Below are positions 10,870-42,678 of a stretch of DNA of 64,000 nt, piece by piece. Made by a program: the position numbers and the translations under genes. The notes under the pieces are model-generated. The model made no database searches. It was not told where the DNA came from and saw nothing but the letters and a program-made list of their open reading frames with translations. Positions within the stretch are counted from its first letter, which is position 1. Every line of letters starts with the position of its first letter. Source of the stretch: Isoetes taiwanensis (lineage: Eukaryota; Streptophyta; Lycopodiopsida; Isoetales; Isoetaceae); NCBI GenBank assembly GCA_021234155.1, contig JAJEKV010000064.1, positions 4,278,001 to 4,342,000 on the forward strand. Reading direction: 5' to 3'.

Positions 10870-12026
10870 GAAAATATGTTTTTTTTTTAAGATTGTATTT
10901 GTTTTATTACGTAGAATAAGCTTTAAAATTTTAAAATAAAAATGTTATTATGTCAATGGAAGTAGCTACGCAGCTCTAAATGTTCGCGGTCGCGATCCTT
11001 CTGAACATTTTTACGCTTTCTAATGTGCAACTCTTACTCAAAAAAGAGCTCGGCTTAGCCTTACAAATGTCAATTTCGGATACACTGCTATTTTATGGGT
11101 GAAAATCATAAAAATAAACGGCAACTTCTACTCAATTGCAACCAATTACGGCGTTTTATAGAGAACCAACAACCTATTTCATACTAAACGAGAATTCCGA
11201 AATTCTCTAATTAATTAATTCTTGCATTTGAGTCACTGTGAATCTTACATATTACATTTGGTTTTCCTGGCCTGGTGGCAAAGCTTTTTGGTTTGATTCA
11301 TAGAGAACACTACAATGGGTTTGTCCCGTGACATCGTTAGATTTTCCAGAAGAACCATGTCTTAACGTAATTCTGAGAAGGTGAAATTTTGTTCTTCTGT
11401 TACTAAACTCTATAATTACCAACATTCATTCCTTGCTTCTGTATTTATCTTTATATACTATTGATCTTGGTCCTGCTTTCAGAGGCATGACTTATATTTA
11501 ATTCCCTATATTTCCTACATCCAAATTTTGAATGCCTTCTGAAATGATAACGCTAGCACAGCATGACAATCTGCAAAGTCCATTACCATTCTTGCCAAAA
11601 TTCAAAACCAGCTTACTTTCTACTTACCTATTGGAAGAAAATTGAAGGCCAAAGAACAAAAAGTCGGAATAGCAGATGATCAAAATTTTATTCCTGCAAA
11701 GACTGACCCAAGCTGGAGCTATCATAGCTGAATTCCAAATGTGCTATGCAGTTTCAAAGCAAACTCCAGCTGATATAAGCTTGCCCTATGATACATGCAT
11801 CTGGATCTCTTCAATTGCATCTCCAAGCAAAGAATAAAGGACCAAAATCATAAGGAAAAAGACCTGCTTTGCCACCCTTCTTATGCTTTAGCAGAGCTTG
11901 TAATATGGTAGTCTAACTTTGTTTCGTATATGCATGTTGCAAAATTGTAATATGGTAGTCTAACTAAGTATTATTCCATCCTGGCTACAAAACATATTCT
12001 TGTTGGTTTTTTAAAATAGCATGCAT

Positions 12027-12055
12027 TAGAGTTTTTTTGAGGTCAAATAAGAGCC
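12027..12055. repeat. Left terminal inverted repeat of the 15.4-kb element
   Basis: It starts TAGAGTTTTTTTGAGGTC and is preceded by ATGCAT. It matches the reverse complement of 27364-27392 at 28 of 29 bases. The next 170 bp inward are C-rich with repeated CCTAAC/CCGAACCTAAC units. Confidence 0.9.
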
Positions 12056-12350
12056 TCCTAAGAATATATTAGGGGGGCCGCCACGTAGGATCCCGAACCT
12101 AGCTTCCCCCCCTCCATACCTAACTTTCACTCTCCCCTAACCTAACTACCTAACCTCCGAACCTAACTCCCGAACCTAACCCCGCAATCATTATTTCCTA
12201 ACGAGCTAGGATTTTCGTTTTCCCACCTTCGAGCTTATGCCATCGAGCTTCAGCGCCATCAATCGAGCTTGCCCTCGCGCCATCGACCTTGCCATCGCGC
12301 CATCGATCTTGCCATCACGCCCAGGCAGTTTTTAAATTCGAATTATGGCG

Positions 12351-12410
12351 GATTCTTGCCAGCAAATAGAGCGAAAATTTTCAATTTCGCTCTGTTTGTT
12401 GGCAAGAATC
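12351..12410. repeat. Long hairpin inside the left end of the element
   Basis: The left arm is GATTCTTGCC followed by AGCAAATAGAGCGAAA; the right arm is TTTCGCTCTGTTTGTTGG followed by CAAGAATC. They pair over about 26 bp with one or two mismatches around an 8-base loop. It could be a subterminal transposase-binding structure or a transcript hairpin. Confidence 0.75.
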
Positions 12411-12529
12411 TTCCTAATTCTAATCTCCGCTCCGGTTCTCGGTCTTTTGCAACGTCAATGGCAAAGGTATTTGGTTTCCGAGTCGTCATTGCATTCCTTT
12501 GAGTGTTCTTCCTTCTAATACTTCTGTTT

Positions 12530-14950
12530 CAGGATCAAACTAATTCCGAGGGTCAATTTAGAGTGCAAGTGCCAAAAGAATGCACGCCTTACGGGGAATA
12601 AGTTCACTTGGAAGCAACCAATAGATGAAGATGCATTGCGAGCTTACGGAGCCATGAATATAGACCTCCGGGCTAAAGGCCAATCAGTATCCATGTGATC
12701 CTTTCACTCGAGCCCATCAAACTTCCACTCGCATCCGGTCTTATTGAATTTGCTTGTAAGGGATGACAAGGGTTACTAGGTTCTTGTAATAATTTGGTTA
12801 ATGGTATCTTGATCCACATTTGCGTGCCATGTATAACCACTTGTATGGATTCAATTGCAAAGTTTTATCGATGTTAATCAGCTCCAACAGCGAACTAGTT
12901 TTGTCTCAACAATGCCGCAAGCTCAATGAATTGGAGGTAGAAAATCAGAAATTGGTGACTGAGATGAATGCACTGCAGCAAGGAATGAAGAGGGTTGCGC
13001 AAGAAAATGATTCCCTTCACAAGCAGGTCAAACGCTTAAAAAGAACTCCACTGGGGATCAGGGAGAGGGCAAAAAACACGAAGCCCATAAATATATTAGC
13101 CCCAGGGGTGGAGGCTCAAAAAGGGTCATGGCTATTAAAAAGCTTGTTGATCCAAATCTTGCAGAAGAAAATAAGAGAAAACCTGCTAATATTTCCGGTT
13201 TATTAAAGAAATTAGTTACTAAAGATGATGTATTGAGAATGTTAAAGCTTCCTGGTAGCATTCAACTTAGGAAAGCTGTAGTACATCAAGCTATTGCGGG
13301 GAGTTGGGGAACAATCAAACCTCGAGAATCGGTGCAAGAAGCGTGGTGTGACAATGTCGGAATAAGTAGGCAAGCTTATATTGCTTTGTTCAAATGCTTG
13401 CAGGATGGCCTTAAACAACAAGGCATTACCAAAACTATTCTACTACCAAGGATGACTAGTGTGAGGACTTGTAGGTCATCGAGAAACAGACAAGTGCAAG
13501 AGCTTCTTGGTGATATGTATCAGCTGACCAGCAGTGTCAACTTGGATACATTGGCATCCTATATTAAAGGTAAGAAGAAGTCGAAGTTTGGTGATACTTT
13601 CTACCTTAATGAAAATAACAATTGCTGGATAGACTTAACTAGAATGCTTCAGCTTTTGGTTCGATTTTATGATATGAAGGTAGAAGAGTCTTGTTGGCAA
13701 ACTAAGAATTGTTTTGATTTGGATGAAATGGAATTGGTGAAAGGCGAGAAGTACGAGAGGGTTTCACTGAGTCTAATGAACAGAGCTTTGAATACAGGGA
13801 ATGAAGAGTCAAATCTAGATGGTAAGTTTTCCGTCCAGTCTGAAGATCACATTTGGTGGGTTGGTTTATTTCAGGTACCAGAGGAAAATCACAGTATACT
13901 GAAATGGGTTTTTGATCAAACACCCATTCCCACAATGATTGCCTCTCACGGAATCGGAGAAAAACTTGCAGTTCCTGGATATGGTGAGTACGAGGTTGAA
14001 TGGCATCTTGCTACAGATTTGAAGACAATAAAATGCATGTACAGAATGAAGCATGGTGCTGGTAAGACTACTCATGCTTGTCCCTACTGTGTCTATGCAA
14101 GAAGAGATTCAGCTGGATTGGACAAGAGTACATTAGACATTAGAATGTGTCCAGGATGAGCCACCAAATAGAGAAGAGAAGGACACAACCTTGATGCCAA
14201 TTCTGCAAATTCCGTTAAGAAGAGTACACATATGCACCCTTCATGCTTTCTTGAGAATCATAGACAAGATGGTTTACATGAGTCCTGTTTGCTTGGAATA
14301 AATCACCCCAAAGCTCTAGGGAAGCTGCCATGCATGAAGTTGAAAAGGTGCTATCTAATGTGGGACTTCATGGTGGGCACTACAAAATACTTCAAGATCC
14401 AAAGGTATCCGGCAAGGTTCCCCTGAAACCCAGTATGGGTGGTCCAAAGGCTAAGAGGTTTTGCCTCCATGAAAAGAGAACTTATCCGGTGTTTGGGAAG
14501 CTTACAAGGATCTTATTGCACCCCGAGGATGATCGAAATGATCGTGGCGAGATCACGCTGAAGAAAATCAAGGCATGGCGGGATTTCTCTCAGATCTTGG
14601 TAAAGGAAATGCGCGAAAAAAGGTAGTGCGGGGAAAATGATGTTGCCAAATTCAGGAGGCGATCACAAACTTCACTAAGTCTTTCGACGGCATGGGGTGA
14701 GGCCAATTTGACTCACTATGTCCATATTACGTTCGCACATGGCGTGTGGTTTGTCGGGGAATATGGAAGCCTGGGAATTTGGAATACACAGGGGAATGGA
14801 GAAGTCCCATAAGCAAGCAAAGGCGCATTCTTCCATTTCACTCAACAGGAGAGGTTGGGTTGGGAATTCCTTGCAGCAGATGTGTCAATGGTTTTACTGA
14901 AGGATCATGTGCAAGTGGGTGAAGAAATCACGCGAAACGAGTGAATCAAC
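12530..14950 (+). pseudogene. Transposase-like gene of the 15.4-kb element (decayed)
   Basis: Coding traces start near 12535 (ARLTGNKFTWKQPIDEDALR). They continue through a coiled coil at 12880-13050 (ELEVENQKLVTEMNALQQG) and, after a frameshift, into a 343-codon frame at 13128-14159. That frame contains a WHLATDLKTIKCMY block followed by a THACPYC cysteine pair. Further frames continue: VHICTLHAFLRIIDKMVYM near 14230, NVGLHGGHYKI near 14350, then a YGSLGIW block and GMEKSH near 14770-14810. This order (Asp block with Cys pair, then HICTLHA, then GMEKSH) is one I recall from uncharacterised multicopy proteins in plants and cnidarians. I infer an RNase H-fold transposase with the Asp and the Glu of GMEKSH as catalytic candidates. 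At least four frameshifts or stops make it inactive. Confidence 0.6.
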
Positions 14951-15183
14951 ACTTGCTAAGTTGTTTAGACAAAAAAAATGAGAAAAAGAGGGCAGCTTGG
15001 TATAAGTCCGCAGCTGTTGAGCGATCAAGGGAGTGGAGATCAATGAGATGTAGGCAAGGCAAAGGTTATGTCCGTATTGAGAGCTCTTGATAACGTCTCT
15101 ACTGTAAAAGAGTTGGTTTATTTATCAGTTCGATAGTGCTCAGTGTGTGAAATGCTGTATTGTAAGTAAATTGGATGCATGTA

Positions 15184-15488
15184 TTGCACATCGTGGCCAC
15201 ATTGCGAAATATGGGCCTGTAACTAAAATTGGATCTCATTATTTGACCGTAGCTACCGGTCGCGAAATAGGCCCTTCAATAATTTGTAACTGAGTCGATT
15301 TCGCACCGTGGCGACGGTGCGAAATATGGGCCTGTAACTAAATTGGATCCACGTATTTCGCACCGTAGCCATGGTGCGAGATAGGCCCTTCAATAATTTG
15401 TAACTCAGTCGATTTCGCACCGTGGCTACGGTGCGAGATAGGCCCTTCAATAATTTGTACCTGAGTCAATTTCGCACCGTGGCTACGG
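15184..15488. repeat. Palindromic array A (57-bp period, six units)
   Basis: Units of a 26-bp palindrome (arm TTTCGCACCGT, centre RGCY, arm ACGGTGCGAAA) lie at about 15184, 15242, 15299, 15356, 15413 and 15470. The first two are eroded and the last is truncated. Spacers are 31 bp and of two alternating types, TAGGCCCTTCAATAATTTG and TATGGGCCTGTAACTAAA. The array lies between the 3' ends of two convergent genes. Confidence 0.95.
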
Positions 15489-15925
15489 AAGAAGAGCGGA
15501 CCCAACTCCACAAAACCCTTGTACTCGTTGTAGTACGCCCTAATAAGGCCATACATCTGTCCCTTACAAATTTCATGAATGAACTCTGATATGTATTGAT
15601 CCAGAGAGTGTGCTAAATAACCAGCACGAAGAAGAGGCCTGAACTGCTGTAGCATCTCGTCCAGATAAGGAGGGGGTTCAAGAATTCCCCTCATTGCAAG
15701 TCTCCTATAACATTCAGATGGATTAATTTCCATCAGTGGCTCATGACCACAATCAAATCGCTCCAGAATGAAGTTGATCAACTCCATTGCAAGCTCCTTG
15801 GTGGGACTGTGGTGCAACCTCCACTCCAAGAAATGGTCAAATAGCTCATCATCAGGCCGCACAGAATGCCTGGGGCATGCTTGCAGGCCTTCTGGAGTAG
15901 CCCAGGGAGGATTGGGTCCAATCAT
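15338..15925 (-). CDS. Element cargo gene A, unknown function (paralogue of cargo B)
   Basis: The reading frame from ATG 15925 starts MIGPNPPWATPEGLQACP. It continues with DELFDHFLEWRLHHSPTKEL, MELINFILERFD, GILEPPPYLDEMLQQF and YLAHSLDQYISEFIHEICKG, ending in YNEYKGFVELG. A close relative lies at 16837-17400 with the same block order. After FVELG the frame reads into palindromic array A; the paralogue has a GTAAGC splice donor there, and here the site reads GTCCGC, so the true end may have been lost. The frame can be opened upstream to 16060, but only through low-complexity repeats, so I prefer 15925. No known domain is recognised. Confidence 0.55.
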   Translation of the reverse strand: MIGPNPPWATPEGLQACPRHSVRPDDELFDHFLEWRLHHSPTKELAMELINFILERFDCGHEPLMEINPSECYRRLAMRGILEPPPYLDEMLQQFRPLLRAGYLAHSLDQYISEFIHEICKGQMYGLIRAYYNEYKGFVELGPLFFRSHGAKLTQVQIIEGPISHRSHGAKSTELQIIEGPISHHGYGAKYVDPI

Positions 15926-15939
15926 TTGCAAAAGCAAGC

Positions 15940-16420
15940 AAGGATCACCGACGGAGCAAGGAACAAGGAGCAGAGCAAGGAACAAGGAGCAAGAAGCAAG
16001 GAAGAAGACCAGGTAGCAGGGAACAAGGATCAAGATCAAGCAGCAAGAAGCAAGGAACAAGGAAGATCAAGGAGCAAGAAGATCAAGGAACAAGGAAGAC
16101 CAAGTAGCAAGGACCAGGACGATCAAGTAGCAAGGAACAAGGATCAAGATCAAGTAGCAAGAAGCAAGGAACAAGGAAGATCATGGAGCAAGGAAGCAAG
16201 GAAGCAAGGAACAAGATCAAGTAGCAAGATCAAGAGCAAGGAACAAGACCAAATAGCATGAAGTAGCACGAAGATGAAGGAGCAAGAAGCAAGGATCAAG
16301 ATCAATTAGCAAAGAACACGGAACACAAGGTGAGAAGTGAAAGCAAGGTGAGAACACGAGAAGTGAAAGCAAGGTGAAAACATGGAACAAAGGTGAGAAG
16401 TGAAAGCAAGGTGAAAGAAT
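15940..16420. repeat. AAGCAAGGAACAAGGATC-type minisatellite
   Basis: About 480 bp of strand-biased purine-rich repeats built from AGCAAG, GAACAAG, GATCAAG and AGGAGCAAG words, ending in GAGAAGTGAAAGCAAGGT units. It lies just upstream of cargo gene A. Similar words reappear at 20215-20350. Confidence 0.85.
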
Positions 16421-16549
16421 TTATAGCTACGAATCCAATAATGTTGAAGTATAATACTAATACTGTTGAAGTATAATACCAAGAAAGTTGAAGAATAATA
16501 CCAATAATGCTGAAGTATTATGGGCCTGTAACTAAACTGGATCCACGTA

Positions 16550-16632
16550 TTTCGCACTGTAGCCACGGTGCGAAATAGGCCCTTCAATAATTTGTAACTG
16601 AGGCGATTTCGCACCGTGGCCACGGTGCCGAA
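16550..16632. repeat. Palindromic array B (two units, 57 bp apart)
   Basis: The palindrome occurs at 16550-16575 (one change, CACTGT) and 16607-16632. Spacer and flanks match those of array A (GGGCCTGTAACTAAA and AGGCCCTTCAATAATTTG). It lies between the start of cargo gene A and the end of cargo gene B. Confidence 0.93.
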
Positions 16633-16836
16633 TATGACCACAAATAAAACATTCACATGAGAAAATACAAGGAAAATGGTAGAAGAAATCATTCAATTAC
16701 ACAAAGTGTAAGATTGCTAAGATAATACATGATAATATGAGGATGTTACTTAATTACACGGAAATCACTTGCTTATATACTTAATTTCTATGAAAATCTT
16801 TATACCAGTTTATACACATATTCCAGTGGAGTATCT

Positions 16837-17400
16837 TCACCTGTGATATGTACATATTATGTGTTGTGTGCTATGTAGCCATAGGTCACGTGTATCCCAA
16901 GGAATTGTATCCCAGGTGGAGAATCTAGACAGTAACCACAGGATGTTGAAGTCAAGGGAACGGAATAGGAGCTTACCAATATCCACAAAAGATTTGTAAT
17001 GGAAGTTGTAAAGTTCAATGAGGATATAAATCCTATTCTTCTCATTAGTAGGAATGACCAGAGGCACATACTGATCCAGAGAGTAGGCCATGAAACCATG
17101 GAAAAGCATGTCCTTCAACTGTTCTAGCCTATCTTCTAAATCTGAGGGGGGTTCAAGAAGTCCCAAAGCACTTAGAGTGAACCTTGCTTGACTCGAATTG
17201 ATCTCCTCCAGTGGAGGGAGATGACGAGTATAGCGATCGATAATGAAGTTGATCAGTTGCCTTGCAAGCTCTGTGGTTGGATCGTGACGCCATCGATGCT
17301 CCCAAAAGTTGCTAAAAAAATCATCAAAAGTGCACGTATTAATTCTGCCACATGCTTGCAGGTATTCCGGATCAGCCCAGCGAGGATCCCGGGGATTTCA
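16837..17400 (-). pseudogene. Element cargo gene B, unknown function (paralogue of cargo A)
   Basis: From about 17397 downward the frame reads NPRDPRWADPEYLQACGR, DDFFSNFWEHRWRHDPTTEL, ARQLINFIIDRY, LGLLEPPSDLEDRLEQ and GFMAYSLDQYVPLVIP, ending in YNFHYKSFVDIG before a GTAAGC donor at about 16980. Each block has a counterpart in cargo A, so the two genes are an old duplication within the element. A TGA just before NPRDPRW removes the start in frame; CGA would restore Arg. Function unknown. Confidence 0.55.
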
Positions 17401-17436
17401 CCTCTAACATTCCGTACCAAACATGTGCGTGACTGG

Positions 17437-17896
17437 TTAGGGGTTTTTTTTTGCCTCACACGTTAGTATACGGTCTGAAAAAAATACGGGTTCACCACCA
17501 CATTTTCGGACATGGTCGTTTAGGGGTGTGGTATGGAACTCCTCACCAACTTCATACGGTAGAGGGGTGCTTGAAGATCCAAGCTTTGAGTCATATGGTT
17601 CCTTCAAGATCATAGGGGTTTGCAATGAAGGTTTCGGTTTTTTTTGAATGAAGGTTTTTTTTGTTGTCGGCGGGGACTTTTCATTGCTCCCTAGGGTTTT
17701 AGAGTCTATACTCTCTACACGAAAAATTAGTCGCCGGTTTGTAGCGGCCGTAGATATGAGCAAGATTTCTTTCAATGGAGCATGACATGATGCAAAGATC
17801 AAGACCACTAAGGTTTTCTGTTATGGCCGTTTTGGCAAAGGTCTTTGGCGAGGATTTGACGTTCACTTGCCTAGAATATAAAATGGAAGGTACCAA
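17437..17896 (-). CDS. Small basic hypothetical protein(s) in the element
   Basis: Two overlapping minus-strand frames are present. The longer (17437-17808, 123 codons) has a Lys/Thr/Pro-rich middle (SPPTTKKTFIQKKPKPSLQT) and no recognised domain. It may be an exon or a remnant. Confidence 0.25.
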
Positions 17897-17938
17897 GGTT
17901 TTGAGGCTTGAATGCTACCGTTTATGATCTCTAGTTAT

Positions 17939-19430
17939 ATAATAGTCACTTGTTTGCAACATGTTTACTCCGCCTTCTCTTGCTCTTAGTAAATTATCCC
18001 TCGTCCAAATGCAAGAACACCGCTTCTATTATGAGCGGCTATTGCACTTGTAATTCTCTGTTGGGTGCTTCAATGCATATCTTAACCTAGAAGAATGTGG
18101 CTCGAGGGCCAAGCTTTTCAGTTGAAGAATGCCGCTGCAAAGTAGTTTTGTTATGCGGTATTTTTGCTGATATGGAAGCAGCCGGGACAAGTTTTGAAGG
18201 AGTTGTTGCAATAACAAAAGGTGCATGCAAAAAATAGCGGGGTTGTCACCGAGAAATCTTGTTAGAAAGCATTGCTATATGTGGAAGAGCTAGTGGAGCA
18301 AACAACACGGAGCTGGATGCACGCATTTAACCCTCGCTACAAGTTTTCAAGACCTTGTGCATGAGGACGTCCCTCCTAACCGGGTTTGGCACACGTTTTT
18401 CTAAATAATATGGGAACAAACACAATAAGGGATGAAGTTTAATTATATCCGCATACTACTAGTGTTGTTCTTGATGTCTTACATATGCAAAAGCTAAGGT
18501 TCTATCATGCTTAGAAGATATGGTAAATTTGAACTCTCTACAAGTATGTTTTTGCGGGGGTGGATTTAATCTTGTCTCGTGATACTACTAGTGTAGTTCA
18601 TGATGCTTCAACTATAGCAAAAAAATGAAAGTTCTATCTTGTAGCATTAATGAGAATAAGTCCGGATTTTGTATAACACATTTTTTTTCAGTTAAAGCTT
18701 TTCCGAAATGATCATGCTCTAGAAATCCTTTTTGTGTCATAGGGTTTTGAAAGTTTCTCTAATGCACGTCTTATATTAGGTGTTGTCAATGAAGCGTTTT
18801 CCTCATAAAAAACAGGATTCTATATATTGCTACTAAGTTGTCCTTTACGTATTGTTGTGGTGGTGGCAAGATTGTCGAAAGTGGTCCACCTCCTTTGGAT
18901 TCAAGGATGCCAAACGAATCTGCTCTGTTACTCGAACAAGGTCATCTGTTGCATCTGTGGATCATTGATGGTGAAACACGAAGTGGTGATAAACAAGGAA
19001 TCTCCCTCTTCTTTGGGGAGGAATTTTGATAAGTTGCGGGATACCGACAACCCGTATGGAGCATGCGCATGATCTCAAGGTTGTGTCCAATCGGGAGCTA
19101 CTCTTAGCTAACGAGAGGGATATTTCCATTGATCTTTGGGATGAAGGTTTTGAAAAAAGTGTACGAGCAAGGCCATGGATCTATTGAAATTGGTAGAGAA
19201 TATCCGGAAAAGTATGCCCCGACAAAGGGGGGCAGTACAAGTTAACGAGAATATGTGGAAAGAAGTGCACTGAAAGGGGACATGGATCAATTGAAGTCAG
19301 CATGGAATATTTGGAAAAAGGTGTGCGAAAGCAAGGACAAGGATGGAGTTACAATTGAAGCAAGCACAAGCTTTTGAAAGAGATGCACCGCAAGGAGGAC
19401 AGGTTAGATGAAACATCAGCTCAACATAAA
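17939..19430 (+). pseudogene. Eroded plus-strand cargo coding sequence
   Basis: Broken frames alternate along this stretch: SLVQMQEHRFYYERLLHL near 17990, ALLYVEELVEQTTRSWMHAF near 18270, GGGKIVESGPPPLDSRMP near 18860 and NRELLLANERDISIDLWDEG near 19100. They read as protein but are separated by stops and shifts. I recognise no domain. Confidence 0.35.
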
Positions 19431-19758
19431 GACTAATAACGTGATAAATGTTCTTTTAGCTCTTGGGATATACATCTCCTTTTTGTCTATGAAATGATTA
19501 CTTATTCAAATGCTTTGAACGGGCATGGTTACTTGTATATAGCTTTCCTTGCACGGTTTAGTGATACGACGACCATTGGTAAATAAGTTTTTATTGGAAT
19601 AAATATTCTCATTTGACAATACAAGCATCATCCATTGGAAAGGAAAAGCAAACAAAAATTGTTGTTTCTTGGCTTTCAAGAAGGGTTATGTTATGTACAA
19701 ATTATGAGCACGGATTTTAACTCATCCGGAACACCTTTATTGCTGAATTCTATATGCT

Positions 19759-20136
19759 CTACATAGCAAAGGCTTTGTTAAATGTATAATGATTTATGGT
19801 CTTTGAAGAAAGCTTTTGCAAACTATCTTTTGAGCACTTAGAAAAAAGCAAGGTGGGTATGGTGCGAGATATCTTGGTCCGTCTTTGGTTGCTTGGTAAT
19901 CGGTCTTTGGATCGGCCCGGGCTTTTAGAGTCTCCACAAACCATTTTTTCCGAATAAGGCGACGGCACAAACTCAAGTACAAGATCGGGTAGGGGTATGT
20001 AAAACGTAACATAGTCCCAGCGTATATCTACGGTGATGGGGGCGGGAAACCGGGTTTTTCTATTTACGTATGTAGGGGTTTTCGACCTCCAAAAGTCGTA
20101 TACAAGGGGTTTTCTGGTGACCCCTTGCACGCACAT
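19759..20136 (-). CDS. Hypothetical cargo protein, 125 codons
   Basis: An open frame with RKPLVYDFWRSKTPTYVN and ITVDIRWDYVTFYIPLPDLV, then a basic region (GDSKSPGRSKDRLPSNQRRT). There is no match that I know. The start is uncertain because the initiator is at the edge of a GTG/ATG cluster. Confidence 0.35.
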   Translation of the reverse strand: MCVQGVTRKPLVYDFWRSKTPTYVNRKTRFPAPITVDIRWDYVTFYIPLPDLVLEFVPSPYSEKMVCGDSKSPGRSKDRLPSNQRRTKISRTIPTLLFSKCSKDSLQKLSSKTINHYTFNKAFAM

Positions 20137-20214
20137 GAGGTATCCCCATGTGCCTAGGTGAAATCCCCGGGGCGAGGATGTTCTTGCAAAGTTACCATTT
20201 GCAAGAAACTAGTG

Positions 20215-20350
20215 GAGCGCGAACAAGGAACAACTAGTGGAGCAGCAAAAGGTGCAAGGAGCATGCAAGAAAGGAGCAGACAGTGAGGCAAAGAGCAACA
20301 AGAAGCGGACAGGGAGGCAAGGAGCATGCAAACAAGAAGCAGACAAAGAC
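20215..20350. repeat. AGGAGCAAG-type purine-rich repeats
   Basis: Short words such as GGAGCA, AAGGAGCATGCAA and AAGAAGC recur. They resemble the minisatellite at 15940-16420 and likewise lie just upstream of cargo genes (C and D). Confidence 0.55.
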
Positions 20351-20561
20351 AATGAAGGCATATATGCCTATTTAAAGAGAAATCAGGTATATATGCTATA
20401 TACGTACATTATATTTACGCTTTGGATTGCAGCCATGGATGAAGTTTGACACCATTTCTCACGCATTCACCAAGATCATTGTAGCTCATGTAGCATACGA
20501 GTACCATACAAGTATGTATATGATAATAATTTTGGTATGTATATACCATCAATAATTTTCT

Positions 20562-20891
20562 ATGTATATACCATCAATAATTTTGGTGGGTATAAATATA
20601 CATCAAATTGCCGAGTGCAGCAACATTGGCCTCCGTCTAGCCATGTGGTCTCATTCTGGTCCTAAACGTGATTCCATTACCTGCAAGATGAATCATGAAA
20701 ACTTCAAGCAGTGTCGCGAGCGAGAAATACCCATGGAAGACTGGATGACCACTGCCGCTCTCAATCCTCGCTATTATCCTGATCCCTTCGATGTTATCAT
20801 CCATCTAATATGGAATAGAGAGCATCAAATGTACATGATAGAAAAGATCACTGGGGTGCCTGGTGACAATGACTCAGAAGAGTCCCCCTAA
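20562..20891 (+). CDS. Element cargo gene C, unknown function
   Basis: The frame includes DSITCKMNHENFKQCRERE, IPMEDWMTTAALNPRYYPDP and FDVIIHLIWNREHQMYMIEK, ending GDNDSEESP. Its neighbour (cargo D) shares the order SITC-M-x-R-C, then VIHLxW. Both are preceded by the same 5' sequence (TATATGCTATAT near 20390 and 20910), so the pair arose by tandem duplication of about 515 bp. The true first exon may start upstream at ATG 20434. No known domain. Confidence 0.45.
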   Translation: MYIPSIILVGINIHQIAECSNIGLRLAMWSHSGPKRDSITCKMNHENFKQCREREIPMEDWMTTAALNPRYYPDPFDVIIHLIWNREHQMYMIEKITGVPGDNDSEESP

Positions 20892-20976
20892 ATCAATACT
20901 CAGAAGGTATATATGCTATATGCGTACATTATATACATGTGTATTTTGTACATTATGCTCGTATGTATAACCAATA

Positions 20977-21369
20977 ATGCTGCTACTGCATGTCAATAAT
21001 TTTGTTCGATATAAGTACGGTTCCACTCAATGCAGAAGGCATCCATTTGCTATGTCTCGGCCTGGTTATTCTTATTACAGGGGGTCTACCTTGCCTCCTC
21101 GTCCCGAAGATATGGACTCCATTACTTGCACTATGACATATAATGATCTTTATAGATGTTCTCGGAGGGGTATCCCCTTGATCCCCGGTTTGGAAGGAGT
21201 AGCAGAGGGCCGAAATCGTTCTTCCGGAGGGTTTTATCGTGTTGTTATCCACCTTTGGAGGGTTCCAGAGCGCGCGTCTATGAGATTAATCGCATCGCTC
21301 AACTACCTGCTCATGATTGCGAATGAGCTTCTTCATTCATGTATGCTATGCCTCTTATATGAGTTCTAA
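20977..21369 (+). CDS. Element cargo gene D (paralogue of cargo C)
   Basis: The frame includes MSRPGYSYYRGSTLPPRPED, MDSITCTMTYNDLYRCSRRG, a Gly/Arg-rich loop and FYRVVIHLWRVPERASMRLI. The conserved parts match cargo C; the loop is longer. The 3' end overlaps a 33-bp duplication (CTATGCCTCTTATATGAG at 21347 and 21379). Function unknown. Confidence 0.45.
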   Translation: MLLLHVNNFVRYKYGSTQCRRHPFAMSRPGYSYYRGSTLPPRPEDMDSITCTMTYNDLYRCSRRGIPLIPGLEGVAEGRNRSSGGFYRVVIHLWRVPERASMRLIASLNYLLMIANELLHSCMLCLLYEF

Positions 21370-21538
21370 GTATATGCTATGCCTCTTATATGAGTTATAA
21401 GTATGTAACCATAAGTGATACATGTGATCCGTCTATTTACCGCACATTTTCAATTTGGAAAGCTCTTGGCCATTTTCCTTACGTGTAGATTCTAAATTCA
21501 GTTCAGCATTCTCTTCGCAGTGTGTGGAATAATGCATT

Positions 21539-21737
21539 TTTCGCACCGTAGTCACGGTGCAAAATTAAGCCCTCAAAAACTTTGGAACTACTATTTTCAA
21601 GATCGTGGCCCGCGATTAAAATAGACCTTCCCAAAGAATGTGGAATAGTCATCGAGCCAAGCACCGTGGCGATCGCGGCGAAATAGACCTTTCCACAGAA
21701 TGTGGAATAGTCATTTTCGCACCGTGGCCACGGTCAA
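21539..21737. repeat. Palindromic array C (four units)
   Basis: The palindrome is clear at 21539-21564 and as a truncated copy at 21713-21731. Two eroded copies between them keep the ~57-bp spacing. The spacers (for example CACAGAATGTGGAATAGTCA) differ from those of arrays A, B, D and E. It lies between the 3' end of cargo D and the 3' end of the H3-like gene. Confidence 0.85.
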
Positions 21738-21866
21738 CACTAGTAGATAAATGCACAGCCGCAATAAATAGAATAGCAAATAATTACAGATAAATATAAA
21801 ACACGCATCACGATAAATATTAAAACACTCATATATTAACAACCAAAAAAGTGTTACAAAAGGATG

Positions 21867-23259
21867 CTAAGGGAGGCATCCACGGAAGTATCTAGCTAAG
21901 GCATAGTCCCTGTCCTGCACAGTAACACGTCCTCTGTGCACACAACAGCGGACACTGTCCTCAAAGAGGCTAATTAGATGAGCCTCTGCTGCCTCTTGCA
22001 GTATGTCCAAGGCCTCTGCTTGGATTCTATTCACCTCCTCCTCCACCATCGGGACGAAGTCTGGTGCTCTGTCCCTCCTCTTCCTCCTTGATTCCTTCCT
22101 CCTCTCAATAATTTCCTGCATCTCAAACCTGACCATTCTAGCGAATGCAAACTTGGGAATCAGAGGCTGGGTGCGTGCTGCCAATTACCTAATCTCCCCT
22201 CAAAGCACGAGTGCGGGAGGAGCACCCTTTATCTTCTCAGGGCCACCATATCTAACACTAGGCTCCCCTTCCTTAGGCTTCCGCTTATTACCAAGCTTAT
22301 CTGTCTCCTTGGCTGCATCTCTCTCAGCTTGTCTCCAACTAGGAACAAGCCTAGGAGGCTTTGCCGGCTCGGATTTCTTCGGCTTGGATTTCAGCTTTCG
22401 CCGGGGCTTCCTAGTACCTGTTCCACTCGAACTAGGTTTCCCGGGATCAACATCTTTGGTCCCACGATCTTTGATCTTTTTGGGGCGGCTGATCCCATCG
22501 ATCTTCCCCGGACCGGTGATCTTCGATCTTGCTAGCCCGTCGATCCTGGCGATCATCTTTGGACCATCGATCTTTGGTCATCTTTGCACTTCCATATTCT
22601 GCACTTCTTCCTCCCCCCCACCACTGCCAAACGTTTGGGAATGCAATAATGGTCCCAACGTCTGAGACGAGGAGATAGCCTGATTCATGAGCCACTGGGC
22701 ACCATGGCCCTGGTCAACCGGCCAAAGCATCTGGCCGTGTGTAGAACCCCCGGTGGTTTCAACATGTAATCCAGCTCATTACACAAGAATTGGAATGGCC
22801 GTGGCACATGACGTATGACCCGACGGCTTCCTCCAATGTCTCCGCTCCAGGGGTGGGGAACGGCAGGCTGGCTGTTGGATCCAGAGCTGTGTCCACTGAT
22901 ACCACAATACAGTCATCTGGAACTGGAATATTGTGGCAGACAGTGGCGTCACGGAAAACTCCTTCCCCAACAACCTTACCAGCGCTCAGCAAGGTGACCC
23001 GACTAGGAAGCACGGTCGGGTTTTCGAAATATTTGTCCACACTATTATTAATAGTGTGGACGACATTTCCAAGGGTTTGCCCGAAGTCTTCTGTAAGGAC
23101 AATCTCCTCTACATCCATCTGCTGGCTTGTGATGGGAATACCTGCCTCGCCCTCTGTGATTGGAATAGAAGTCTCGGCGCTGCTAGAAATGACCTCGTCA
23201 ACATTCTGGCGCTGGTCAAGCGCCTCATTTTGTGGGATTTCAGAGCTAGCGCCTTCCAT
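21867..23259 (-). pseudogene. DUF8039-like domain fused to a histone H3-like fold
   Basis: Reading from ATG 23259: an acidic N-terminus, then KVVGEGVFRDATVCHNIPVP and ETLEEAVGSYVM, a pattern I know from plant transposon-associated DUF8039/CACTA-type proteins. After shifts near 22815 and 22755 the sequence continues as FQFLCNELDYMLKPPG, GQMLWPVDQGHGAQWLMNQA and a long Lys/Arg/Pro linker (TGTRKPRRKLKSKPKKSEP). The C-terminal ~105 residues follow histone H3: EIR, LIPKFAFARMVR (alpha-N), AEALDILQEAAEAHLISLFE (alpha-2), RVTVQDRDYALARYFRG (loop 2/alpha-3). LIP and AEAL..LQEAAE are also features of plant CENH3. An extra ~20 charged residues separate alpha-N from the core. In-frame stops at 22578, 22200 and 22185 can each come from one C-to-T change. 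The H3 fold is well supported; the single-gene fusion is inferred from adjacency and frame. Confidence 0.72.
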
Positions 23260-23343
23260 GGATATGAGCGGATTTTAGCAAGGAGGAGAAATTCAAATAA
23301 GCAATATTGTCTGTCCCGATCCCATAAACCCCTAGACTAAAAA

Positions 23344-23590
23344 ATGTTCTTGGTAGCCACGGTGCGAAATCGGGCAGTCTAAAAACTGCCGACATCCTGT
23401 TTTCGCACCGTAGCCACGGTGCGAAATAGGGCAGTCCGAAAACTGCCGACAGCCTGTTTTCGCACCGTAGCCACGGTGTGAAATCGGGCAGTCTGAAAAC
23501 TGCCGACAGCCTGTTTTCGCACCGTAGCCACGGTGCGAAATAGGGCAGTCCAAAAACTGCCGACATCCTGTTTTCGCACTGTAGCCACCA
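23344..23590. repeat. Palindromic array D (five units, exact 57-bp period)
   Basis: The palindrome occurs at 23344 (right half), 23401, 23458, 23515 and 23572 (left part). The 31-bp spacers are nearly identical to each other and contain their own small hairpin (GGGCAGT and ACTGCC). They share nothing obvious with the spacers of other arrays. The array lies between the start of the H3-like gene and the end of the next minus-strand gene. Confidence 0.97.
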
Positions 23591-23767
23591 TTAAAGAATA
23601 CCTAACATATACATCTAACAAGGATTTATTGCTCACATTGAATTCTAACAATTAATGAATATCATAAATGAACATTCATACAAAAGCAATTTCGTCATAT
23701 GAAAACAATTGATACATTATAGAAAAGACAATTTATAGAAAAGACATTATATCAATGCAAAAGTTTT

Positions 23768-25283
23768 TTAAGTACATTTCCTTTTCTTGGCATCAGGGCC
23801 TGTAGTACCCGAATCAAAATCTTCTAAGTCCTCTTCTTTTACTCCAGCCCCAATTGCATCTAACAGATACAATATGTCAGGGTCCTTCTGTGCACAGGAC
23901 AAGCGCAGTGTTTCCTTGTCCGCTCCACCCAAGTCTAGAGCTACTTTATTTGCAAGGACAGAGTACATTTTGAAGCCCCTGAAGACATACATTGCGATAG
24001 CCCTATCTACTGCTACCACTCGATCATAGTTTGAGGCTAGGGGCACGTGGTTGCCAGCTAATGACAGAGCCTTAAGCTTGAGGACCTCCTGTACTCCAGA
24101 TGGACTATATTTATTGTGAAACACAATAATTCCCCCCTTGTGAAGGTAGCCCATATAATGTGCAATACTGGCGTCCCGACCTAGGGTGACTCTCTGATGC
24201 CTTGCACAGAAGTCATCAATAAATAACTCCTGCATAAAAGAAACATCAGATTCAAGAAGAAATAGAAAATGAAACCAGATAAATACCTCTTTTGTCCCAT
24301 TCGACAACGGTTTGGGTTTGTTATTTTGAAAGAGGACTTTGGCAAAGCTCACGTTCTATGAATTGAAGCAAGTGTTTGAAGAGCTAGCGACTTCAAATTT
24401 GACATCTTTCAACGCTTCATACCCCTCAGACTTTTTTGCATGACAATTTCAAATGCATCCTCACGGAGGTATTGAGGATCCATCATAAGTCACGGCCTCC
24501 ATCATTTTCCGGGGACATCGGGTCTCAAAGTCTATAAGTCCTCCCGGGCCGACAACATGGGCATATATCCGCCCAATATCTCGCGTCTTCTCTCAACCCT
24601 CGTCGCCGGATATGTCCGGCAACAACAAGTATGGTTTCCCACCTACATGGATGGGATATGCTTCTGATAGCCCCCAAGTAGATAACTTTTTCTCGGAGAC
24701 CTCCTCTTCCACAACCTCGATCTCCTCATTTTCCAGTACGAGCTTCTCTTCCTCAGGATCTATCGGCTCCTCTCTTGGTGAGGGGGGCGCGTTGTTTGGC
24801 GACGAATTGCACTTGAAGAAGAGCGGCATCTTTGCTTGGCTTAGTGTAAATCATGTATGTCTTTGAACATGATATCTAGGCCAAAAACTTTCCTTCCCCT
24901 CTTGCACCATAGATTCGCGGTAGTTTCTTCAAGAACCTTCTAATTCGGTCTTGATCGGGTTTGAAACATCTTAAGAAAAGCACGCATGCTTAGTGAAGGC
25001 AAACTAGTCACGGGACATGGTTTCCGCGTCGGGACCAGCTCGACCATGAAGCTATGAAGGATGCCGCCATATGCATCGAGTAAACCTGTTGTTAATCGCG
25101 TGCCATAATGTCTACGCTTCGGGCAAAATTATTATATACGATGGGTTGCATCCAGCGGCTCCTCTAGCTCCTCTTCGAACTCTTCGAGGGATGCTTCGGC
25201 CCGAAAATCCCGTTCTTTCTCCACTATTTTGTCATACCATGCGCTAAACAGCTCCCATGCCTTATCTGACCCGCTATTTGCCA
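23768..25283 (-). pseudogene. Large cargo gene, unknown function
   Basis: From ATG 25283 the frame reads MANSGSDKAWELFSAWYDKI and an acidic stretch (EASLEEFEEELEEPLDA). After stops and a shift it passes through GTRLTTGLLDAYGGILHSFM, a second acidic region, LSTWGLSEAYPIHVGGKPYL and GLIDFETRCPRKMMEAVTYD. The last open part (23768-24352) has GGIIVFHNKYSPSGVQEVLK and ends in the nuclear-localisation-like KKRKCT. A 57-nt stretch at 24230-24286 has GT-AG ends and is probably an intron. Multiple stops show decay. I recognise no catalytic motif. Confidence 0.5.
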
Positions 25284-25388
25284 TTCTCGTGGAGCAGCGC
25301 CTCAATTTATGACAGTTAGAATGTGAGCGCCACTAACAACGTGGCAACGATGCGAAAATAACACTTCCTTAATTTATGCTATGCACAA

Positions 25389-25684
25389 ATTCGCACCGTG
25401 GCTACGGTGCGAAAACAAGACTTCGATAATTTATTGTATTTACAATTTCGCACCGTGGCTACGGTGCGAAAACACCCCTTCCATTTTTTATTCTATGCAC
25501 ATTTTCGCACCGTAACAACCCTTCAATATCTTATTGTATGTATAATTTCGCACCGTGGGCATGGTGCGAAAATACCCTTTCATTTTTTATGCTATGCACA
25601 TTTTCGCACCGTGGCTACGGTGCGAAAATGGCCCTTCCATATATTATGAGAGCCACAATTTCGCACCGTAAGTACGGTGTGAAA
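25389..25684. repeat. Palindromic array E (six units)
   Basis: Units begin at 25389, 25446, 25503 (left half only), 25546, 25602 and 25659. Spacing is 56-57 bp except at the truncated unit. Spacers are AT-rich (TTTATTGTATTTACAA and TTTTTTATTCTATGCACA types), again specific to this array. It lies between the start of one minus-strand gene and the end of the next. Confidence 0.95.
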
Positions 25685-25764
25685 ACACGTCCACAATCAG
25701 AGGTGTACATAATTTCGCAATTAATATACAATAGATCTCCAATTAACAATCACTTATATTTATA

Positions 25765-26977
25765 TTAGATAGATTCATATACAGATATGACTTTGGGTGG
25801 CATGCATGACCCCAATTTATAGCTTTCTTCTCTGCGCTTTCCCACCTTCTGGCCATCTATCATGAAATGGAAGAAATTTAAGTCTGTCTCAAACTCTAAT
25901 TGCCGCCGAACATCGAATAGAGACCACTCACTCTCCGCTCTCAGACTTTTGAACAGCTGATTATCCTTATGAATGTTCAAGTCTATGACAACGGAATGAG
26001 TGCCATCATTGTCATCTTGTTCGACAGGAATCCAGACGTACTTTCTTCCTTCACGGACATTTCGCCATCTCCTATACTTAAAAGTGACATACAGAGTTTG
26101 CTTCCGAATGCAATATCTGAACCGAACCGTGTCTCGACTTATCCTGCATTCAGTACATTCAGCTCCATCGAACACTCCAACCTTCAAGAAATACACTATC
26201 TAAAAACTATCCACAAATTTGTTGAACTGTAAACATCTTCAAGGTCTTCTTTACATTGTGGTAGCTCTTGAATATGGCAATGAAACGGATCAATTCCTAA
26301 ATTTATCTTCACATGCCCATGAGACTCCTCCCTTCTCCTTCAATGCCGCGTGAACATTTCCTGCGACAACTTACTCCGTGCTAATAAGATAGAAGTGGCA
26401 TCCGAGGCCTGCGCAAGATAAATCGGACAAAGTTTGGGCAATGGAAGCTCGGTTAGCTTGGATCTTCGTGGAGAGTATTCATACCTCGAACCATATACCC
26501 CTTTCTCTCGAAATGCTTGGTGTGCTACCTTGAACAACAAGCAGCCCATATCTTGGTGAAAGCAATGGAATACATCGCTTATCGAAAGTGTGAAGAGACA
26601 GTGTTCTCCACATCGGATATACACAAACACGAGAGAATAGGAATGAAGGCTGGATAAGTAACTTGAACTAATTTGAATATGGATTGCATAGAATTACATA
26701 CTCACAATTTGCTTCTAACCGTGGGAAAAGTTCGTCGCTTGCTTATTTTTTCTTTTGCCATATCTGTTGGAGTGTATACATGCCTTACTTGTATAAATAT
26801 CTCTTTGCCTGATCGAAATCCGACCACCAAAGCCTTCCAATGTGCAGAAACATCATTTCTCCTGCATCTTTTGACTCGCCATTCACCTCGCATTGCAGGT
26901 TGAAGTGTAACAAAGCTCCCGGTCGACACCACGAAGCTTTCAAACTCATTTTCGACTGTGATAGAGCTTATAGCCAT
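25765..26977 (-). CDS. Multi-exon cargo gene; first exons weakly BAH-like
   Basis: Exon 1 (26977-26706) begins MAISSITVENEFESFVVSTG and has KALVVGFRSGKEIFIQVRHV followed by YTPTDMAKEK, ending at a GTGAGT donor. Exon 2 starts after CCAG at 26649 in matching phase and reads CGEHCLFTLSISDVFHCF. The order (Val-rich strand, VRHVYTPTD, then LFxLSxSDV) resembles BAH domains of plant EBS/SHL-type chromatin readers, but similarity is weak. Frames at 26340-26530 (GVYGSRYEYSPRRSKL) and 25765-26196 (FDGAECTECRISRDTVRF to MPPKVISVYESI) continue it, or belong to a second gene. It is the first gene read from the right end of the element. Confidence 0.4.
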
Positions 26978-27363
26978 CTAGTCACAGAATTCAAATCAGA
27001 ATATGGAGCGGAATCGAAATACTAGGAAAGGCTACGCGATTTTACCTTGATCGAAGTTTTTCTGCGGTCGAAACTCCCCTTAGCGCAGGTCGAAGCAGTT
27101 CCCGAGTGAACCGAAGTTCCCTTGTCGCGGGCAATCGATCTTCGCGCAAACTCTGTTGTGGAAAACACCTGAGCGGGAAATGAGGGGGGCTAACGGTTAT
27201 AATTGCCACGTGTGTAATCTGAAACCCGAAGCTAGAGGCACGGATATTACCGAAGCTACATGCAGTTGACACCTGGAAAGGCGAAAGCAAGGCTCGGTAA
27301 AAAAGTTCTGTACAAGCTCGGCTCCCCATTGGCCGCGAGCTTTTTGACGTGGCATCGAGTAAG

Positions 27364-27392
27364 GGCCCTTATTTGACCTCAAAAAAACTCTA
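27364..27392. repeat. Right terminal inverted repeat of the 15.4-kb element
   Basis: It ends CCTCAAAAAAACTCTA and is followed by ATGTAT. One mismatch to the left end, at 27367. Confidence 0.9.
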
Positions 27393-27398
27393 ATGTAT

Positions 27399-39575: not shown

Positions 39576-40947
39576 AGAACATGAATTGTTCCATCTCCTC
39601 CCCATTTAAACAATTCGATGCATATCCCATCTAAATCATGTGTTTTATTGCTCTCCATGCCAGAAATAGTTTCTCTAACATCGGCCTTAGAAGAAAGATC
39701 AGCATCCCAAGATATTAAAGGCATCCCTTCAATGTTACTTTTGGCGTAAATATCCTGGACCATTTTTAGCAGATCGTCCATATCAAGCACAGGCTGTTCA
39801 CCTGGAGAAACAAGCGTTTCTTAGCTCTCAAGAGCTTTTTGTACCAGCTTGGTTTCCTTATGCATCCGGTTGGCAGCTTAGACCTCGCTTCTTTGCACTC
39901 GTTATCCCACCACGAATTACATGGTTTCCCTTTTACAAATTGCCTCGTGAAACCAAATACTTTCCCAGCAGCCTGGCGGATCATATCAGTGAAGTGCTTG
40001 GCATCTATGGCCATCGTATCTGTCCAATGGAATTGAGCGACCATTTCCTCTACTAACACCCGGTATGGCATGCATAATTTATAGTTTACTTTCAGTCTAG
40101 GATGGAAAGGGAGGCGCGCAGCAGCAGTGGCAACATGGTTGGATTTCAGCGTGACATGCAAAGGGAGGTGATCTGACTCAGACATCTTTGTGCCCACATG
40201 ACAAGAGTGGACCATGTCCAAGCTACCTGCCAGCAGATAATCTATGGTACTTGCCCCTGAATGATTCATGCAAGTGAAACTTCCAGAGTCTGGAAATTTC
40301 GATATGCCATTGACAATTTTCAAATGGCAAATAGTGCCAAGCTCAAGCAGGAAGTCACCCATCACGTTAGAGATTTTATCTTCTGAGGATCTACAAAATA
40401 AGGGCTCTGTAATCTCCTGCATCTGGACATCAGATACATCAACATACCTTTTTGACTGGTCACTACTCGTCCGCGCATTGAAGTCTCCGAGGAGGAAAAC
40501 TTCACCCTGTGACATGAATTGTAAAGTGTCTGCACAAAGCCTTTGAAAAGGGTCATCTCTATTAAATTCCTTGCTGTGGTATAGAGTGGCATTCAAAGGA
40601 GCAAGATAGCACGCTGCCACATATAAATCCTTGCTCTTTGTTTTAATTTTCAGCCATAGGTATTGCCTATTTGTGTCCTCTGAAACAATTTGTATGCTAG
40701 AAGCAATGTGCTCCCTGCTGTAAACTGCAATCCCTCCATAACCTCGGCCTGCTCCAGCAGTTTTCTCATTCCATACATGCCCTACTAATACAAATCCAGG
40801 CACATCAGGGAGTGATCGGAATTGGTGCTCCCACGTTTCAGTAAAGATTAAGATATCCTTTTTGTTCCAACTATTAGAGGTTGCATTGATCTTGGCTTGA
40901 TGTAAGCCATGAGCATTCCACAGACTGACATTCAGAACCCAATCTCC
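39576..40947 (-). pseudogene. LINE family X ORF2: endonuclease and start of reverse transcriptase
   Basis: The frame from 40947 reads WVLNVSLWNAHGLHQAKINA, then GRGYGGIAVYSREH, AACYLAPLN, GEVFLLGDFNAR, STIDYLLAGSLD and SDHLPLHVTL. These are the APE-type endonuclease motifs in order, including the Asn-Ala and Ser-Asp-His boxes. A stretch with WWDNECKEARSKL follows, and the RT N-terminus DLDGICIELFKWGGDG near 39610. The RT domain then stops and family Y begins, so the 3' half is missing. A stop near 39766 separates the endonuclease frame from the rest. Confidence 0.8.
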
Positions 40948-41652
40948 CTAACTACATTTCCTGTTCGTGATTACGGCCTTGCCATTCTGGTCTAAGTAGG
41001 CAACATAACCAGAATTTCTAGCATCTTTCACTCTTGCCCATTCCCTTTTTCTTACTTCAATTTGTGACGGAGTCAGATCATGATCTAACCATATTCCTTT
41101 CACTCCTTTCAAGACTGCCCTGTTAAGCATGATCCTATCCCTTGCTTCCTTGCTTGGGAACCTAACCAAAATGGGGCGTGTGTGGTATCCTGGCTTGCCT
41201 AGCCTCTTTCCAGAAATAAAATTTGGCTCGTGAAGGTGCATGGTATCCCTGAAAAATTTTCGGATTACCTCTGATGTGTTTTCTTCTTCCTCTTCACTAA
41301 TACCGGATATCTTCAAATTCTTTGCCTGCGAATCTGTCTCAGTCTGCTCTAATGCAACATGCTCTCTATAAAGCTTCATTTGTTCTTGTGTTGTTTCTGC
41401 AATCAGGTTGGCCAGATTGGATTCCAGGGTACGAATTTGCTCTTTATAGTCCGCTGGTGGATTAGATTCCGCCAACGGCCTCTCCTTCTGCGCGACCAGT
41501 TCAACCGTTTCCCGAAGTGCAACCACTTCAGATCGCAGCCCCTTGATCTCTGAACTTAATTCATTGATCAGAGATATCAGGTGAGCGGAATCGCCATCGT
41601 ATTCCAGTAGGTCACCCGCACCGGGTGACCCATTCTTCTTCTTGGGTGGCAT
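40948..41652 (-). CDS. LINE family X ORF1 protein (L1/Transposase_22 type)
   Basis: 234 residues, intact. It starts MPPKKKNGSPGAGDLLEYDG, followed by a coiled coil (SSEIKGLRSEVVALRETVE and LESNLANLIAETTQEQ). The RRM-like/C-terminal domain has NLKISGISEEEEENTSEVIR, FISGKRLGKPGYHTRPILVR, FPSKEARDRIMLNR and WLDHDLTPSQ. The layout matches L1 ORF1p, an RNA-binding chaperone that trimerises and coats LINE RNA. It lies directly upstream of ORF2 with no gap. Confidence 0.85.
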   Translation of the reverse strand: MPPKKKNGSPGAGDLLEYDGDSAHLISLINELSSEIKGLRSEVVALRETVELVAQKERPLAESNPPADYKEQIRTLESNLANLIAETTQEQMKLYREHVALEQTETDSQAKNLKISGISEEEEENTSEVIRKFFRDTMHLHEPNFISGKRLGKPGYHTRPILVRFPSKEARDRIMLNRAVLKGVKGIWLDHDLTPSQIEVRKREWARVKDARNSGYVAYLDQNGKAVITNRKCS

Positions 41653-42678
41653 ACGAAAACCTACCTAAGGCGCCAGGCGGAAGCGACCAAAAAAATAAAT
41701 CGCCAATTGAGAAAGTCCAAGTGATCTAAGGCTTTCTTTTGTCTTTACATAAAACAGAACTTCACTTCACTTGCTTGTATTTTCACACCTAAAGCTAAGA
41801 ATTCATATGCAATCAAGACTCATTCTTGCATGTGTAGAAACTTTATCTCATGTTATGATGCATATTTCGAAACATTATTCAAAACGATGCTCCTCGCTTG
41901 TAAAGGTCTCATGTTAGTATGCATATTTTGAAACGTTATTTGAAAGGATGCTCTTGATTTGTATTACAGAATAGAGTAAGAATGCAAATTCCTATTCTGG
42001 AATAGCATAAGACTCCTATGTGTATTCCGGAATAGCTAGCGTAAGTGTGCAAGATTCTATTTTGGAATAGCACAAGACAACACGGGTATTCGAAAATCCT
42101 ATTCCGGAATATAGTAGAAATATGAAAACACTGACTAGGTTGTTCTCTAGATAGAGTTTGGCATGCTCTGATTAGTTATTCTTTGCACTAGCAAAAACTT
42201 TATGTTTACATTTCCTTCACAACTTGAACTTCTTGTTTAATGTTCATACTTTAAATTGTAATCTATTACAAATTCACCTCCTTTTGTCGTGTGTTCATAA
42301 TAACCCAGTGCTAGAAAAATAAATGTAGTTGAAACGACATATACTAAATTATAACACGATGATGTTAATGATTTAACCCCTAAAAAGCGCTATTTCAAGA
42401 TGCTGATATGTTGACCCCGTGATAAAAAATAATAATTTTCTGCTAAAATAGCACATATTAAATTGTAATCACCATGAGTTTTTGAACTTCACCTCTAAAA
42501 AGGGCCATTTCGAATGGTTAATGTGTTTTTTAGAAGGGAATCTTCAATCGAGAGTGCTGCAATACTCTCGTTTAATATGCAACTGTGTTTAATGTAAAGA
42601 AGACCATTTTCTTTACATTGTGAGAAATTTGAATCAACCAAGTATATATAAGGCAGATCTAAATAATATTTTGCCCTT
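41653..42678. other. AT-rich intergenic DNA
   Basis: Short palindromic words TATTCCGGAATAG/TATTCTGGAATAG recur four to five times between 41990 and 42115. No gene. Confidence 0.5.

Follow-up and report, generated by a model that had tools for sequence, protein, structure and literature searches.

Genes and Features of the Element

The window, that is, the whole stretch of 64,000 nucleotides analysed here, carries a long DNA element bounded by inverted repeats and, within it, on the minus strand, a gene that joins a histone H3 part to a domain of the element (the fusion gene). Also found between the repeats were a putative transposase gene, a gene neighbouring the fusion gene (gene-a), further open reading frames (ORFs), and arrays of a palindromic repeat (Table 1). 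The similarity of the two inverted repeats extends beyond the 26 nt that were searched. A preliminary description of the locus had attributed an H3-fold protein to a mobile element; its coordinates and the strings quoted in it were found in the window as given, and the inverted repeats, together with the many copies described below, support the view that the protein is encoded by such an element.

Table 1. Features of the element, in the order of their positions in the window.
Feature	Position	Strand	Remark
Whole DNA element bounded by inverted repeats	12024..27395		15.4 kb in the window
Terminal inverted repeat, left	12024..12049	+	26 nt searched, 0 mismatches, 0 expected
Putative transposase gene	12802..15090	+	in pieces
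Palindromic repeat array	15192..15488
Element ORF	15338..16066	-	no family match; by eye like the ORF at 16837..17397
Element ORF	16837..17397	-	no family match
Stretch missing from copy H	17377..20168		about 2.8 kb
H3 histone-fold module (alpha-1 to alpha-3, with loop-1 insert)	21867..22184	-	3' limit is the stop codon of the gene
H3 alpha-N helix region	22185..22256	-	two in-frame stops in the window copy
Basic linker at the place of the H3 tail	22257..22577	-
Remaining linker	22578..22806	-	frame-broken in the window copy; Q/D/H-rich in several relatives
N-terminal part: acidic start and conserved domain	22807..23259	-	no known fold assigned
Palindromic repeat array, 57-nt period	23353..23592		upstream of the ATG of the fusion gene
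Gene-a, neighbour gene	23768..24850	-	in pieces in the window
Palindromic repeat array	25340..25685
Further element ORFs	25765..26977	-	no family above cut-off
Terminal inverted repeat, right	27370..27395	-	0 mismatches

The putative transposase starts with a coiled coil and has a C-x2-C motif and, late in the protein, GSLGIWNTQG and an EKSH motif. No Pfam transposase, including that of the Transposase_21 type, matched its broken read-through. A second pair of ORFs that are alike by eye and match no family lies at 20556-20891 and 20971-21369 on the plus strand. The palindrome was found at 15 places in the element, with 29 matches over both strands, where a mean of 0.04 was expected. Elsewhere in the window, we noticed pieces of LINE-type endonuclease and reverse transcriptase at 39766-41664 (minus strand) and 50330-50833 (plus strand).

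Ten copies of the element (A to J), each taken with 10 kb on either side, were compared with the window, and parts of one element were common to all ten. Both ends of the element were present in copies B, C, H, and J and in the window, and the left end only in D and I; neither end was seen in copies A, E, F, and G, all of them truncated or altered. The element spanned 12.9-13.1 kb in B, C, and J and 14.7 kb in H. The stretch that copy H lacks (Table 1) is probably a later nested insertion into the window copy.

For copy C, the two flanks joined together aligned with a related unoccupied stretch in L035 at 84% over 248 columns with no gap at the joint, and with another such stretch in L005 at 86% over 92 columns, with a gap 3 nt off the joint and none at the joint itself. 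Copy B was inserted in a LINE reverse transcriptase, in which, by eye, 21 residues separate two conserved motifs; the same spacing was seen, also by eye, in the LINE at 50330-50833 of the window. No target-site duplication was found at these two sites (B and C), the ones judged among the five copies with both ends. The combination of perfect inverted repeats and yet no target-site duplication at the two judged sites (loci L033-L036 and L005) is recorded here as such. Two classifications of the element were considered and rejected: the termini, which are CATTAG, and the absent duplication at the two judged sites fit neither CACTA, with its CACTA termini and 3-bp target duplication, nor hAT, with its 8-bp duplication, and the broken read-through gave no hAT match.

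Identity and Limits of the H3 Part

The minus-strand frame 22184-21867, which comprises 105 codons, matched the Histone profile of Pfam (PF00125) at 54.1 bits (cut-off 26.4, E = 2.3e-14). Among PDB chains, histone H3 (49.3 bits) and fission-yeast Cnp1 (49.2 bits) matched it equally well, both with E of about 5e-12. Weaker similarity was found to the profiles of CBF/NF-Y (21.2 bits) and TAF (13.4 bits), and the identity of the window protein to a fungal H3 is about 41%. Chance resemblance to H3 is excluded by the match to the histone profile together with those to the PDB chains. The same results uphold the earlier view that the C-terminal part of the protein follows H3: the profile search proposed as a check of it gave a significant score, so that the outcome named as counter-evidence, a missing H3 score, did not arise.

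The histone profile match and the H3-type proteins nearest to the frame place it in the H3 family. Like canonical H3, the window protein has alpha-N, the histone fold, and most of the interface and DNA-contact residues. Unlike canonical H3, it has no canonical modifiable N-terminal tail, which is replaced by the linker and the fused element domain, and it has an insert in loop 1. In relatives of the window gene, the stretch PPGTQALREIR...LIPKLAFARMVR corresponds to alpha-N plus the fold. The structure predicted for the H3 part comprises alpha-N, long alpha-1 and alpha-2, and alpha-3, at low confidence (pLDDT 62.7). With this weak model as query, the top three rows of a Foldseek search were chains A of nucleosome entries, which we take to be H3 by convention, at E-values of 0.48-0.67 that are not significant. 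Searches of plasmid and viral contigs gave no relative, and the fused read-through had none in the protein database at E <= 0.01 among the best 7998 candidates by shared words.

Architecture of the Fusion Gene

The window copy of the fusion gene is broken: its ATG at 23259 lies in one frame and the linker and H3 part in another, and two in-frame stops occur immediately upstream of LAARTQ. In the copy at L017, a single frame connects the ATG, the N-terminal domain, a Q/D/H-rich and a basic linker, and the whole of H3; it contains one nonsense codon, which is also present in L018. Stop-free ORFs from the linker through H3 were found at L013, L020, and L022. On contig C1018, the matches to the N-terminal domain (14286604-14286990) and to H3 (14285824-14286105) share strand and reading frame, their starts being offset by 885 nt, which is divisible by 3, and one stop-free frame of 489 codons holds both domains. 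Across these copies, the fusion gene reads as one intron-less gene of about 450 codons.

The genome searched comprises 1,658,258,908 bases in 1110 contigs. The H3 query gave at least 150 matches in it (150 scored of 5322 candidates), which are 44-100% identical to the query and include the window itself and a few copies split in two pieces; the matched H3 part is stop-free in 25 of the 30 best. When the 150 listed H3 matches were compared with the 150 listed N-terminal-domain matches, 35 of the former had one of the latter upstream, on their own strand and 780-1628 nt away, where about 0.04 would be expected with even scatter. No N-terminal-domain match was found on the opposite strand within 3 kb or downstream of the listed H3 matches. 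Separate adjoining genes in place of a fusion are ruled out by the frames of L017 and C1018 and by these co-location counts. Thus, the two features that the preliminary description had read from the window, a broken upstream frame and a fusion of H3 to a domain of the element, were both recovered, the former as a frame change and two in-frame stops, the latter as the one frame of L017 and the stop-free frame of C1018; relatives with the two domains as separate genes, or with the H3 part absent, did not appear.

Gene-a accompanies the fusion gene, with a match no more than 8 kb away in 32 of the 49 best N-terminal-domain loci. Two arrangements of the two genes prevail: either they stand in tandem, gene-a being upstream by about 1 kb, or they have opposite orientations and are 2-7 kb apart. 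In a second family of the element (see below), the fusion gene likewise has a relative of gene-a upstream of it. An example of the two genes in family 2 is C1018:14281421-14286990.

The N-terminal domain matched no Pfam family at its cut-off, and the Pfam searches gave only rows below the cut-off (DUF816, E = 0.095; TORC_M, E = 0.036). The label DUF8039, presumably accession PF26133, which had been given to this domain before, was not recovered: no match to it was listed at limits of E 1 to 10, in a library from which the DUF8039 model is possibly missing. The structure predicted for the N-terminal domain (pLDDT 40) is unusable.

Long-Term Constraint on the Two Domains

The copy at L050 (outside copy J) is diverged from family 1 and has the same domains. 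Its gene is broken as well, with the N-terminal domain and the linker in different frames and a stop before H3. Compared with L017, it is identical in 39 of 90 residues of the N-terminal domain and in 50 of 110 residues of the H3 part (43-45%), at a pS of about 0.80, which is saturated, and a pN of about 0.40. Since this identity persists between families whose synonymous sites are saturated, selection appears to have kept both domains. The comparison of L050 with L017 shows long-term constraint on both domains, and it is the main evidence for it.

Within family 1, the pooled pN/pS of the H3 frame was 0.42 (435 pairs from 30 copies), compared to 2.16 and 0.56 in the wrong frames, and in the wrong-frame control at 0.56 the ratio falls with divergence much as it does in the true H3 frame. 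The 30 loci had been picked by H3 similarity, a choice that itself lowers pN and favours kept residues. Because of this choice and of the wrong-frame control at 0.56, the H3 ratios within the family, which point in the same direction as the comparison of L050 with L017, are weak evidence when taken alone. With subfamily majorities, covering 26 of the 30 loci, pN/pS was 0.28-0.56 in H3 and 0.47-0.90 in the N-terminal domain. No constraint was seen on the N-terminal domain within family 1, where the true frame gave a pN/pS of 0.76 and the wrong frames 0.75 and 1.05 (29 copies, 403 pairs).

In the H3 part, F104, E105, D106, C110, T118, L126, A127, and R128 are kept in all 30 best copies, R83, H113, and D123 in 29, and R116 and R131 in 28. 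By eye, L050 keeps R83, E94, E97, F104, E105, D106, C110, H113, R116, T118, D123, and L126, and it lacks A127 and R128. We take the kept residues to include positions of the H3-H3 interface and of DNA contact.

These results bear on whether the element merely carries a fragment of a host H3 gene, acquired by transduplication. That both domains are common to two families with saturated synonymous sites, that a stop-free frame of 489 codons exists, and that most of the best matches have no stop in the H3 part make such passive capture quite unlikely, even with the window and L050 copies broken, the pN/pS of the N-terminal domain of family 1 being high, and a precedent for H3-like capture in a fungal hAT element (PMC3538342).

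Position of the Element Protein between H3 and CENH3

The residues Q68, F84, and T107 mark H3 against CENH3, and CENH3 has a characteristic Trp and a longer loop 1. Family 1 has A68, I84, and S107, i.e., changes in the direction of CENH3 at three H3 positions. P63 is present in family 1 and L050, as it is in two plant CENH3s (hand-entered reference sequences). A68 is found in L050 too, but together with F84, and the CENH3 Trp in the loop is absent from both families. An insert of about 20 residues in loop 1 occurs in both families and in none of the nine H3/CENH3 rows compared. Like CENH3/CENP-A, the element H3 has several of the same substitutions and a longer loop 1; unlike CENH3/CENP-A, its loop 1 is about 20 residues longer still, it has no Trp, and the second family has F84.

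A tree of 14 rows, in which the plant references were hand-entered sequences and neither host H3 nor host CENH3 was included, contained a group of H3 and Cnp1 (82/88) without the element rows, the other forks being open and the branches long. Among eight database relatives, three bear the names of fungal H3 or histone-fold proteins and none is named CENH3. The other five (P0001, P0002, P0005, P0006, and P0008) are CENH3-like by eye (RWQ, PFAR), and no source names them as such. The window protein is an H3-fold protein whose branch between H3 and CENH3 is unsettled. The likeness to CENH3 asserted in the preliminary description is therefore borne out in part: A68, I84, S107, and P63 of family 1 agree with it, whereas F84 of L050, the missing Trp, and the unsettled tree do not.

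The spread of the copies is relevant to a centromeric function. Twenty copies on contigs longer than 10 Mb showed no departure from even spread (KS p = 0.28, judged by contig position), and the placement in centromeres suggested earlier found no support in this distribution. A CENH3-derived H3 part might still take the element or its complex to centromeres, and residue resemblance, including the longer loop 1 and the CENH3-like appearance of five database relatives, is the one thing that would point to such a role. We consider it improbable in view of F84 and the missing Trp, the unsettled tree, the equal PDB scores of H3 and Cnp1, the three relatives with fungal H3 or histone-fold names, and the dispersed copies.

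A Second Set of H3-like Loci

With the fungal H3 as query against the genome, the best 150 of 8309 candidates were scored and listed down to E = 3.8e-44. Fifteen loci are 82-83% identical to the fungal H3 over its whole length and are presumably the host H3 genes. A gap in E-values, from 4.4e-61 to 1.5e-48, separates them from the next 135, so that the listing contains a second set of at least 135 loci on 66 contigs, which are 65-77% identical to the fungal H3 and whose match begins at residue 13-33, so that the tail is left wholly or mostly unmatched. These loci are far more numerous than the 15 presumed host H3 genes. Open frames of at least 300 codons were found in 65 of the 135 listed loci and of at least 400 codons in 44, the longest having 567; C1036:6073306 and C974:15275230 are example loci. 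The second set is probably larger than the 135 loci listed.

A CENH3-like query found many of the same places at 54-63% identity, and this lower identity places the second set nearer H3 than CENH3. No listed N-terminal-domain match occurred closer than 5 kb to any of the 135 loci, and no listed gene-a match closer than 15 kb, where 0.37 would be expected by chance; both counts are uninformative on the fusion partner. By its appearance, the second set may be another mobile H3 fusion.

A Possible Role of the Tail-Swapped H3

Tentatively, we interpret the tail-swapped H3 of the fusion gene as an anti-silencing or tethering factor that would act at the level of chromatin, a reading that is plausible though not quite probable. 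The gene, one of several in a DNA transposon, encodes the N-terminal domain of the element, a variable linker, and the alpha-N helix and fold of H3. The H3 part may pair with host H4 and enter nucleosomes or tetrasomes; pairing with H4 and binding of DNA are suggested by the conservation of the corresponding faces. The H3 tail has modifiable sites at K4, K9, K27, and K36. As this modifiable tail is replaced by the element's own part, the chromatin of the element could escape the silencing marks H3K9 and H3K27 on that subunit, and the N-terminal part may tether element proteins to chromatin. The loop-1 insert, which might hinder a normal nucleosome, counts against the nucleosomal model, and the lack of A127 and R128 in L050, together with its broken gene, counts against the preferred interpretation as a whole, as do the low confidence of the H3 structure model and its Foldseek rows, none of which is significant.

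The main rival is a non-nucleosomal role, in which the H3 fold would be the dimerisation and DNA-binding part of the transposition complex, e.g., on the 57-nt palindromic repeats. NF-Y, TAF, and CENP-T are histone-fold proteins that act without canonical nucleosomes, and a similar role of the element protein would agree with its long basic/acidic loop-1 insert, with the recurrence of the palindrome in the element, and with the weak similarity to CBF/NF-Y and TAF. However, the core-histone profile is by far the closest, and the residues of the H3-H3 interface and of DNA contact are mostly kept. A non-nucleosomal role seems rather unlikely to us.

According to Manning et al. (2013, PMC3538342), a hAT transposon of the wheat pathogen Pyrenophora tritici-repentis carries an H3-like ORF, H3L, in 26 nearly identical copies, and its authors placed H3L with neither H3 nor CenH3. 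The two cases are alike in that an H3-like gene travels in a DNA transposon with inverted repeats and is multiplied by it. However, H3L stands alone as an ORF within a hAT element, whereas the quillwort H3 is fused to a domain of an element without a hAT match. Moreover, the H3L copies described there are nearly identical, whereas the quillwort element resides in a plant and has diverged families with long-term constraint. Virus-encoded histones, which according to a review (PMC9145170) include two single H3s that are 75-77% identical to animal H3, resemble the present case in that a genetic parasite has its own histone. They differ from it in that the quillwort case is an integrated transposon and a fusion protein. 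No H3 fusion in a plant transposon was found in the literature searched, which is a narrow basis. Compared with the fungal precedent, the novel points are that H3 is fused, that the host is a plant, and that there are diverged families and constraint.

More generally, it is conceivable, if doubtful, that several transposon lineages encode their own H3 and build tail-swapped nucleosomes that host silencing through H3K9 and H3K27 cannot mark; at least one such lineage would have the heavily altered H3 fold described here, and the second set of loci would perhaps be another. The element-type H3-fold matches, at least 150 in number, outnumber the 15 presumed host H3 loci, and the fungal precedent suggests that transposons took up H3 more than once. 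If the chromatin-level interpretation of the tail-swapped H3 holds, the strategy of this transposon would operate on the nucleosome itself, in that its H3 offers silencing no substrate, and the element would amount to a natural tail-swap experiment on H3.
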